Source: Shinella granuli
Lineage (GTDB): Bacteria; Pseudomonadota; Alphaproteobacteria; Rhizobiales; Rhizobiaceae
Assembly: GCF_004341885.1 (NCBI RefSeq)
Contig: NZ_SLVX01000001.1
Location: forward strand, 372,001 to 436,000
DNA length: 64,000 nt
Reading direction: 5' to 3'
In this document: in pieces, positions 35,907-39,888 of the stretch
Position numbering within the stretch: the first letter of the stretch is position 1
Layout of the letters: each line of letters begins with the position of its first letter
Made by a program: the position numbers and the translations under genes
The notes under the pieces: generated by a model
The model's database searches: none
Told to the model about the DNA's origin: nothing
Seen by the model: only the letters and a program-made list of their open reading frames with translations

Positions 35907-36635
35907 ATGACCCCCGCCACGAAAGATGAAATCCGCGATGCCTTCCGGCGTGGCAGCGCCGTGGCGATCGCCGCGGCACCGTTTGCCGTCCTGTTCGGTG
36001 CCGTCGCCATCGACAACGGCCTGACGATCGCGGAAGCGGCGCTGATGAGCGCGACGCTCTATGCCGGCGCCAGCCAGCTCGTCGGCGTCGAGCTCTTCGA
36101 TCACAATGTCGCGCCCTGGCTGGTGGTGCTGTCGATCTTCGCCGTGAATTTCCGGCATGTGCTCTATTCGGCGGCGATCGCCGCCCATATCCGGCACCTC
36201 ACCTTCTGGCAGAAGGCGACGTCGCTGTTCTTCCTCACCGATCCGCAGTTCGCCGAAACCGAACGCCGCGCCGATGCGGGCATCCGCGTCAGCTATATCT
36301 GGTCCCTTGTGCTCGGCCTCAGCGTCTATGTGCCCTGGCTCTGCCTGACGATCGTCGGCGGCCTGCTCGGCAACCTGATCAGCGATCCCAAGGCGATCGG
36401 CATCGACGTGCTGCTGCCGATCTACTTCATGGGCCTCGTGCTCGGCTTCCGCAGCCGGGCGAACTGGCTGCCGGTGGTGCTGGCCTCCTCGGCGGGCTCG
36501 ATCCTGGCGCTGCATTTCGTCGGTTCGCCCTGGCATGTCAGCCTGGGGGCGCTGGCCGGCATCCTCGTTGCCGCGCTCATGCCGCTCGACGGCGACGAGG
36601 CAACGGTCGGCGATGTCGTGGAAGGGGAGGCGTGA
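35907..36635 (+). CDS. azlC: AzlC family branched-chain amino acid exporter, large subunit
   Basis: This 242-aa protein has six to seven transmembrane segments and the AzlC signatures AAPFAVLFGAVAIDNGL (about 22-38), LYAGASQLVGVEL (near 51) and FAVNFRHVLYSAAIAAH (near 77). AzlC pairs with AzlD to export branched-chain amino acids or their analogues. The overlapping azlD gene follows. No adjacent regulator (AzlB or Lrp type) is seen. Confidence 0.9.
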   Translation: MTPATKDEIRDAFRRGSAVAIAAAPFAVLFGAVAIDNGLTIAEAALMSATLYAGASQLVGVELFDHNVAPWLVVLSIFAVNFRHVLYSAAIAAHIRHLTFWQKATSLFFLTDPQFAETERRADAGIRVSYIWSLVLGLSVYVPWLCLTIVGGLLGNLISDPKAIGIDVLLPIYFMGLVLGFRSRANWLPVVLASSAGSILALHFVGSPWHVSLGALAGILVAALMPLDGDEATVGDVVEGEA

Positions 36636-36949
36636 GCATGGATACGCTGTTCCATATGCAGACGCTGCTGATCATCGCCGCCGGCGCGATCGCGACCTAT
36701 CTCACGCGCGTCGGCGGCTATGTCTTCATCACGCGCATGAAGCGCATCCCGCCGCGCGCCGAAGCGGCGCTGAATGCCGTTCCGGCCGCCGTGCTCACCA
36801 CGCTGGTGGCGCCGGCAGCCGTGACGGGCGGGCTGGATGTCAGCCTGACGATGGCGGTCGCCCTCCTCGTTGGCCTGCGTCTTTCGCTGCTTCCGGTGCT
36901 GGCCATCGGCTGGGTCGTCGTGATGGTCCTGCGTCAGTTTATCGGCTGA
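36632..36949 (+). CDS. azlD: AzlD family transporter, small subunit
   Basis: This 105-aa protein has three to four hydrophobic segments and the AzlD segment AIATYLTRVGGYVFITRM (about 18-35). A GTG at 36632 overlaps the azlC stop by four bases; ATG 36638 two codons later is equally possible. It is the small partner of AzlC. The 3' end overlaps the convergent aminopeptidase gene by 11 bp. Confidence 0.88.
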   Translation: MSMDTLFHMQTLLIIAAGAIATYLTRVGGYVFITRMKRIPPRAEAALNAVPAAVLTTLVAPAAVTGGLDVSLTMAVALLVGLRLSLLPVLAIGWVVVMVLRQFIG

Positions 36950-38937: not shown

Positions 38938-39462
38938 TCAGAGGCGGGCGAGATAGCGTTCCAGCACCGCGCGGGTCAGGCGCTGGTTGTTGCGATACCA
39001 GTCGTCCTCGGTGAAGAAGGCGGGTTCGCCGGCATCCCAGCCGCTCATCGAGAAATCCGACTGGCGGGCGAGGAAGGCGACGAAGTCCTCCTCGGATTTC
39101 CATTCCGCGATGGGCGGGCCGAAATAGGCCCCGCCGTCCTGCACGTCGGCCAGCATCACGCCGTCCTCGGTACGGATGAGGCCCTGGCCGCAGAAATCCC
39201 GGTGATGGTCGTAGATCACGCCATTGCCGGGCATCTCGTTCGTCAGCTTGTGCCAGAGCCGTTCGGCCAGCGCCGCGCCGAGCGGCTTGCGGCTGAGGGC
39301 ATCACGCAGGGATTCGGCGATGCGGCGGCGCTCCGCCTCGGTGCGGGTGGCGCTTTCGACCCGGTAGGGGTTCTTGCGCGCCTCGATATTGGCGCGGATC
39401 GCGATCCACAGCACGAAGACGATGACCGCAAGCGCGATGAGCGGGATGACGGTGGCGGCCAT
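38938..39462 (-). CDS. Membrane-anchored protein of unknown function
   Basis: This 174-aa protein is not recognised. It has one N-terminal transmembrane helix (about 4-22, VIPLIALAVIVFVLWIAI), then a soluble acidic domain with many aromatic residues, including GVIYDHHRDFCGQGL (near 77) and DDWYRNNQRLTRAVLERYL at the C-terminus. The sequence is low in repeats and looks like a folded domain. ATG 39462 is chosen because the helix begins three residues later. It is preceded by a divergent sRNA-like locus. Codon use resembles its neighbours, so a true gene is likely. Confidence 0.75.
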   Translation of the reverse strand: MAATVIPLIALAVIVFVLWIAIRANIEARKNPYRVESATRTEAERRRIAESLRDALSRKPLGAALAERLWHKLTNEMPGNGVIYDHHRDFCGQGLIRTEDGVMLADVQDGGAYFGPPIAEWKSEEDFVAFLARQSDFSMSGWDAGEPAFFTEDDWYRNNQRLTRAVLERYLARL

Positions 39463-39676
39463 GCTCAGGAAAACCCCGCGGCATCGCGAAGAGGTCTGCA
39501 ATTGGACTTATGCGTTTCGTGCATGGCACCCATGTCTCAAAGGCCCTGTCGCGAATTTTCGAATCCTGTATAAGCGGCGCCAACGAAGCGAAACAAAACG
39601 CGCTTCAAGCGAAACGAAGTGAAAGTTCCTCCAGTCCTTCGGATCGCAAAATGAACTGCCGAAAGGCAAAAGACTA
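39463..39676. other. Intergenic region upstream of the sRNA candidate
   Basis: This holds the divergent start regions of the membrane protein (-) and the sRNA candidate (+). AAGCGAAAC occurs twice (near 39585 and 39607) in a run of GAAGCGAAAC/GAAACGAAGTG motifs. A TGTATAAG box is at about 39568. No -35/-10 pair at the expected distance from 39677 is convincing. Confidence 0.35.
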
Positions 39677-39828
39677 GGTGTTCCGATCAGGCGTCTTGCC
39701 GGTCACTCCTCCTCCCTCCTCCGGGAAGGCGCTCGGAACACATAGGCCCGCTTGAGCACTCCTCCTCAAGCTCGCGGGCAGGCCGGTTTGCCGGCCCATA
39801 GGCGGTGCCTCTGGCACCGCCTTTTATT
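39677..39828 (+). ncRNA. Candidate trans-acting sRNA with anti-Shine-Dalgarno loops (alpha-r14-like)
   Basis: A stem pairs GTTCCGA (39680-39686) with TCGGAAC (39733-39739), and an inner stem GCGTCTTGCCGG pairs with CCGGGAAGGCGC (10 of 12). Its loop displays CCTCCTCCC at 39708-39716. A second hairpin CTTGAG/CTCAAG (39751-39770) displays CACTCCTC. A third, GGCCGG-TTTG-CCGGCC, lies near 39781-39796. A rho-independent terminator GGCGGTGCC-TCT-GGCACCGCC-TTTT closes at 39801-39825. The T-tract is only on the + strand, while both neighbouring genes are on -, so an independent + transcript is implied. Rhizobial alpha-r14 sRNAs carry exactly such CCUCCUCCC loops. Length about 150 nt. Confidence 0.7.
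39801..39828 (+). terminator. Rho-independent terminator of the sRNA candidate
   Basis: A nine-bp perfect stem GGCGGTGCC/GGCACCGCC with loop TCT is followed by TTTTATTTT. On the - strand no T-tract follows the stem, so it terminates + strand transcription only. The nearest annotated + gene upstream is azlD, almost 3 kb away. Confidence 0.88.
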
Positions 39829-39888
39829 TTGCCTGCGATTCCCGCGCGTTGAAGCGGAATGTTGCCACCCCGCTTCAAGCTGGCGTCG

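Follow-up and report, generated by a model that had tools for sequence, protein, structure and literature searches.

The alpha-r14 (ar14) RNA NfeR1 and the alpha-r15 RNAs AbcR1/2 repress mRNAs through anti-Shine-Dalgarno (anti-SD) motifs. Expression of NfeR1 requires a TGCA-N6-GCAT element at positions -72 to -57, which is bound in EMSA by LsrB, an activator that responds to oxidative stress (PMC10746234). LsrB, or VtlR, also controls AbcR1, vrsA, and atu1667, and the published VtlR/LsrB consensus is GCAT-N3-TG-N3-T (PMC8844928, PMC7486931), while in Brucella VtlR has been described as the primary regulator of DUF1127 proteins (PMC12595884). Anti-SD sRNAs that differ in how many hairpins they have were placed in one family (PMC3927594). 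In Rhodobacter sphaeroides, four such RNAs, CcsR1-4, are processed from the 3' UTR of the DUF1127 gene ccaF1 (PMC8625941), and in S. meliloti the leader of a DUF1127 gene is subject to attenuation controlled by a uORF (PMC12218461).

Here, we analyse a locus in a 64,000-nt stretch of the Shinella granuli genome (the window) that brings together three subjects mostly treated separately in rhizobia, namely LsrB/VtlR, the small DUF1127 proteins, and sRNAs of the anti-SD type. Our preferred reading, with a probability of about 0.78, is that it encodes an LsrB-activated, trans-acting sRNA of the cuckoo (anti-SD) type, approximately 250 nt long (39581-39830, + strand), that blocks ribosome-binding sites.

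Fold and genomic context

On the + strand, the region 39673-39831 folds into two hairpins with anti-SD loops, followed by a spacer hairpin and a terminator. Its minimum free energy is -82.3 kcal/mol (z -5.82), and none of 200 shuffled sequences was equally low; the multi-hairpin + strand RNA with anti-SD loops proposed in a preliminary description of this DNA is confirmed. The fold of the full predicted transcript has a z-score of -7.7 and contains a degenerate UUCCUCC hairpin within the leader. The complement of 39673-39831 folds too (z -4.8), since hairpins are expected to fold on both strands; there, no T run follows the terminator stem, and the T-tract is indeed usable on the + strand only. 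The parts of the predicted RNA are as follows.

39581-39672, + strand: predicted 5' leader, its putative start placed 7 nt past the -10 element
39585-39606 and 39615-39641, + strand: small leader hairpins predicted by folding, the second with a TTCCTCC loop
39674-39745, + strand: first hairpin (SL1), with the loop CTCCTCCTCCCTCCTCC at 39706-39722
39746-39779, + strand: second hairpin (SL2), whose loop holds CTCCTCCTC at 39759-39767
39781-39796, + strand: third hairpin (SL3), a spacer without an anti-SD motif
39800-39830, + strand: intrinsic terminator, a stem at 39800-39822 and then the T-tract, conserved in the alignments

The first-loop motif originally reported, CCTCCTCCC at 39708-39716, lies inside the longer SL1 loop, and the second loop, where an anti-SD motif had also been noticed, holds CTCCTCCTC. 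That second loop is a variant, as had been suspected: it is devoid of the final CCC, and the copy in the window is the sole one of 23 aligned loci that lacks 3 nt there. In two Shinella genomes (L025 and L026) the loop of the leader hairpin carries the full CTCCTCCTCCC, located before position 1574 in L025, and their RNA would therefore have three anti-SD hairpins.

The nearest upstream gene on the + strand encodes AzlC (35907-36635, by Pfam). A 105-aa open reading frame (ORF) behind it ends at 36949, i.e., 2.6 kb ahead of the predicted sRNA start, which supports the need for a separate + strand transcript. The - strand carries pepP, a small membrane-type ORF, SCO1, and prmA, the last of these being the next gene and convergent. 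The hairpins might be thought to form a leader attenuator like that of the S. meliloti DUF1127 gene (PMC12218461), given their C-rich tracts, the terminator, and the DUF1127 link; however, the convergent orientation of prmA argues against this, as does the ORF of related loci (see below), which sits upstream and not downstream of the hairpins, and we consider an attenuator very improbable. The small membrane-type ORF (38938-39501, - strand), which stands between pepP and the sRNA, has no Pfam match, and by tblastn it was found in 9 of 21 same-genus loci, in one of them partially.

Conservation and covariation

Relatives of the sRNA occupy the same site in many rhizobia. A BLAST search of 61 genomes with positions 39600-39860 as the query identified the locus in its own genome, in all 20 same-genus genomes, and in 2 of 16 other genomes of the family, with no match among 24 genomes of the same order. 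A covariance model built from these 23 loci (R1) matched, under stricter filters, 90 of 394 family genomes representing 23 of 109 genera (91 matches); in the other 304 genomes these filters left no match, the RNA being either absent or too divergent. Ninety matches were examined, one per genome, the second match of genome G127 being left out; eight Shinella matches (L043-L050) are places already tested as BLAST loci. In its own genome the model matched above noise only once. At least one of pepP, prmA, and SCO1 adjoins 89 of the 90 matches. The sole non-syntenic match, L188, has none of these genes nearby and is a genuine copy of ar14 (87 bits); it was kept among the 90.

Two-sided changes were observed at 45 of 49 base pairs in an alignment of 85 loci (81 distinct rows; L186-L190 left out), where 95.9% of cells pair, compared to 36-45% after the partners had been slid, although this alignment was fitted to the structure of the model and hence leans towards it. 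In MAFFT alignments, two-sided changes affect 11 of 49 pairs (23 loci) and 16 of 32 pairs (28 loci, unfitted); the inner stem of SL1 is not predicted in the latter. CCTCC is present in the loop-1 stretch of 89 of the 90 matches and in the loop-2 stretch of 84. Both the loops and the terminator, whose loss in relatives had been considered as a refutation, are kept. From the number of matched genomes, their synteny, and the covarying pairs, we conclude that 39673-39831 represents a real RNA gene. Although intergenic DNA rich in GC frequently folds, the notion of chance hairpins or of a repeat element hardly deserves credence in view of the single copy that R1 finds in this genome, the stability relative to shuffled sequences, and the covariation.

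When the named genomes were scanned with a degenerate pattern, 14 contigs showed the combination of promoter and loops, most of them from Sinorhizobium/Ensifer and Shinella. On its own, the motif GCATGGCACCCATG occurred at 93 sites when two mismatches were allowed, and was uninformative in this form.

Predicted promoter and candidate LsrB box

Upstream of the hairpins, the window contains three candidate promoter elements.

39510-39534, + strand: LsrB-type activator box predicted from sequence alone, ATGC-N7-GCAT and then GGCACCCATG
39546-39551, + strand: weak -35 candidate CTGTCG, read by eye, with a 17-nt spacer
39569-39574, + strand: -10 element TATAAG, its TATA at 39569, at a conserved spacing from the box

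In an initial set of 45 loci, which includes many close relatives, 44 have the strict form of the box, ATGC-N7-GCATGGCnCC[C/T]AT, with TATA (sought at 40 to 75 nt) following 59 or 60 nt further on. This spacing is fixed although the distance from the box to SL1 ranges from 105 to 285 nt in the same loci. Among the 90 matches, 86 have an ATGC-N7-GCA-like box (score of at least 11 of 17), and of the four for which the scan gave no box, three retain a GCATGGC piece. In 68 of the 86, the box is followed by an exact TATA at a distance of 59 or 60 nt, and only eight other TATA starts occur in the scanned range of 30-90 nt. Looser forms of the -10 element fit 80 of the 90 matches and none of the shuffled sequences, the spacing being biased here, since these forms were sought only at 58-61 nt. 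Because the box-to-TATA geometry is conserved, we place the start 7 nt past the -10 element, near 39581, and the transcript would thus be about 250 nt long. This replaces the start near 39677 and the length of about 150 nt given in the preliminary description.

Relative to this predicted start, the box occupies positions -71 to -57, compared to -72 to -57 for the LsrB box of NfeR1 (PMC10746234), and a TGCG-N6-GCAT at -70 to -57, one base off the TGCA-N6-GCAT of NfeR1, may be the counterpart by sequence. The published VtlR/LsrB consensus is matched exactly by 19 of the 86 boxes, always on the reverse strand; the window deviates from it by one base.

The signature ATGC-N7-GCAT-N43-46-TATA has six exact sites in the 6.6 Mb genome, and the reversed control pattern has none. 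These sites precede the sRNA described here, two ar14 sRNAs (contig C13), and three Pfam-confirmed DUF1127 genes (C6:83487, C6:266933, and C13:81986). The third ar14 copy, on contig C6, has a box with a one-base variant. In the same genome, a LysR-family gene is flanked by a trxB-like gene on one side and by two matches to RF00519 (AbcR-type) on the other, the layout described for vtlR/lsrB (PMC7486931). Judging from the promoter and from the ancestry discussed below, the sRNA would be tied to a known stress-response circuit.

In the region 80500-84000 of contig C13 (L193), two ar14 genes and at least one DUF1127 gene form a cluster, each with its own LsrB-type signature; by eye, one more site resembling the box apparently lies ahead of a different small ORF.

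Comparison with known anti-SD sRNA families

An Rfam scan of the window produced no match at the family cut-offs. Weak matches on either strand (BASRCI153, RsmW, BASRCI337, TLS-PK3, HgcF, and eeev_FSE) were far below these cut-offs and were rejected. The alpha-r14 model (RF02344) scores 14.8 bits (E 2.1) against a cut-off of 58.8, and 14.8 bits in the genome-wide search as well. Hence, of the relationship to alpha-r14/NfeR1 suggested in the preliminary description, the kinship in loop sequence and promoter geometry stands, and membership in the family does not.

Both RNAs have CU-rich anti-SD loops and an LsrB-type box equally far from the start. However, alpha-r14 RNAs carry three anti-SD hairpins with CCUCCUCCC in each loop, whereas here SL1 has CCUCCUCCC, SL2 has CUCCUCCUC, and the terminator loop has neither, i.e., two full anti-SD hairpins are combined with a spacer hairpin and a plain terminator loop. 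In addition, the family described here has one conserved site, whereas alpha-r14 genes are scattered copies. A true alpha-r14 paralog with merely a poor score would share the loop motif and the promoter geometry, and three loci from one genus at the orthologous site (L178, L179, and L183) do reach 52.8-55.5 bits when scored against ar14, a little short of the cut-off. Against a paralog stand the low score of the window, the terminator hairpin without an anti-SD loop, and the scan of 11 other loci, where only L178 was matched at E 0.1 or better. Moreover, the same genome contains three canonical ar14 copies, none of which is matched by R1 genome-wide at E 10 or better (one attains 16.0 bits in a small search). 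We therefore regard the paralog explanation as improbable.

In L178, L179, and L183 the hairpin of the terminator contains CCUCCUCCC, like that of ar14, and these loci thus form a bridge between the two sRNA types. Weak ar14-like hairpins with CU-rich loops were also seen in the Shinella genome at C31:40634-40742 and C2:581467-581627; they come after very similar coding sequences in the two contigs (L038 and L039) and possibly belong to a repeated element.

The AbcR model (RF00519) scores 12.9 bits in the window versus a cut-off of 41, while the genome has four RF00519 matches; AbcR1/2 are likewise anti-SD sRNAs, and AbcR1 is likewise activated by LsrB/VtlR. CcsR1 (RF02791) is not among the matches listed between 39450 and 40000 with an E-value limit of 10; in the paralog L188 and in L178, L179, and L183 it scores 23.7-28 bits against a cut-off of 65.3. 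As in cuckoo RNAs, the anti-SD hairpins come in modular number, two main ones here and a third in the leaders of L025 and L026.

A DUF1127-like reading frame in related loci

The cuckoo RNAs CcsR1-4 have their anti-SD hairpins downstream of a small DUF1127 gene, and some of the related loci may show a similar arrangement. An ORF of 46-74 aa lies between the promoter and SL1 in 27 of the 90 matches, as established by a search of the 86 box-bearing matches. The other 59 box-bearing matches, including L188, have leaders too short for it, and every match where the box is more than 200 nt from SL1 has the ORF. The Shinella sRNA has no ORF, unlike CcsR1-4 behind ccaF1. None of the 27 ORFs matched Pfam DUF1127 at E 0.1, and an NCBIfam search of them returned no convincing name. 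We call them DUF1127-like because, in a profile comparison, they align along the LDD-LG-SR core with two DUF1127 proteins confirmed by Pfam (probability 84, E 7.5e-6).

In a PrmA tree of 66 loci (68 were chosen, but no PrmA was obtained from L218 and L233; the tree includes L041 and L042, which are outside the 90 matches), the presence or absence of the ORF requires eight changes (7-9 in bootstraps), three of them forced by well-supported branches. The ORF-bearing L051 clusters with the ten loci of the genus Shinella (support 94/87). Because the ORFs resemble one another and share their position, repeated loss would be the simpler interpretation.

In 15 of the 27 loci the stop codon of the ORF falls inside the sRNA match, in the 5' portion of SL1; in 12 of these it lies 14 nt beyond the point where the match begins. 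Translation of the protein would therefore open the stem and could gate the sRNA. We tentatively propose, at somewhat below even odds, that a gene with a single LsrB-type promoter for both a DUF1127-like protein and an anti-SD sRNA at its 3' end was converted into a stand-alone sRNA repeatedly, in several lineages. If so, the 5' arm of SL1 in Shinella would descend from the last codons of the protein. The natural ORF losses provide a set for asking how an mRNA tail turns into an independent sRNA.

The same observations bear on a different possibility, namely that the locus is what remains of the 3' untranslated region of a DUF1127-like mRNA that has been lost, with hairpins that mainly stabilise or terminate the transcript and with an RNA of little function in Shinella, where the ORF is gone. 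The ORF with the same kind of promoter in relatives, its occurrence in all loci with long box-to-SL1 distances, and the repeated changes on the PrmA tree are consistent with such an origin. Yet the ORF-less loci (21 from the same genus, as well as Sinorhizobium) still keep the loops, the stems, and the promoter, and this conservation argues against a remnant, as a useless relic would decay; we find this explanation unlikely.

Proposed mode of action

For the preferred reading, an LsrB-activated anti-SD sRNA, we envisage the following mechanism. The LysR-type regulator LsrB (VtlR) would bind the predicted box at 39510-39534 and activate transcription in Shinella. The two stable hairpins would then display CU-rich loops that copy the tail of 16S rRNA, and, by analogy with the characterized anti-SD sRNAs, these loops would pair with the Shine-Dalgarno regions of mRNAs and block their translation. 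Probable targets are, as for NfeR1 and AbcR, mRNAs that encode transporters or metabolic functions.

The Sinorhizobium meliloti ortholog

The S. meliloti ortholog, found with R1 at positions 5095-5261 of L041 (92.6 bits), has the same promoter. Using RNase P as an anchor, it was mapped to a predicted 2321100-2321296 on the - strand, a length of about 197 nt with ends accurate to about 50 nt. Judging from the gene order, SMc01885 would be pepP. The sRNA sm26 was reported between SMc04453 and SMc01885, with Northern bands of about 135 and 200 nt (PMC2573895), and SmelC531, the same RNA, is listed at 2321050-2321287 on the - strand (PMC2873474). Synteny and the RNase P anchor thus place the ortholog at the position and on the strand of sm26/SmelC531, and the Northern band of about 200 nt agrees with the predicted length; the Shinella copy is longer. 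Judging from coordinates, strand, and size, the ortholog is very probably sm26/SmelC531, and the sRNA, previously presented as new, would have a counterpart detected already in 2008 and 2010.

Several observations fit this identification less well. A tmRNA anchor places the ortholog about 1.9 kb away from sm26; the microarray oligonucleotide that detected sm26 (2321429-2321478) is upstream of the predicted transcript and outside it; the authors expected an RNA of about 390 nt from another promoter (PMC2573895); and SmelC531 was typed as cis-antisense and not as trans (PMC2873474). Two other candidates for the S. meliloti counterpart, SmelC201 and SmelC226, were rejected, as they relied on an inverted map that an ar9 anchor contradicts.

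The microarray codes given for sm26 are A, C, O, and S, read here as acid, cold, oxidative, and salt, and its RNA seemed lower in saturated cultures (PMC2573895). In our literature search for the locus and the family, only PMC2573895 and PMC2873474 named the S. meliloti site; PMC4615179 (on cuckoo RNAs) and PMC3346310 may list the locus. In the passages covered, the two former papers connect sm26 with neither anti-SD motifs nor LsrB nor DUF1127, and no function is named for it in the literature searched. For an sRNA that was very probably detected in 2008, the present analysis supplies a predicted regulator, a predicted family, and a predicted mechanism. Between the sRNA and prmA, S. meliloti Ak57 has a gene for a Phd/YefM-type antitoxin and two hypothetical genes (L041:5531-6667).
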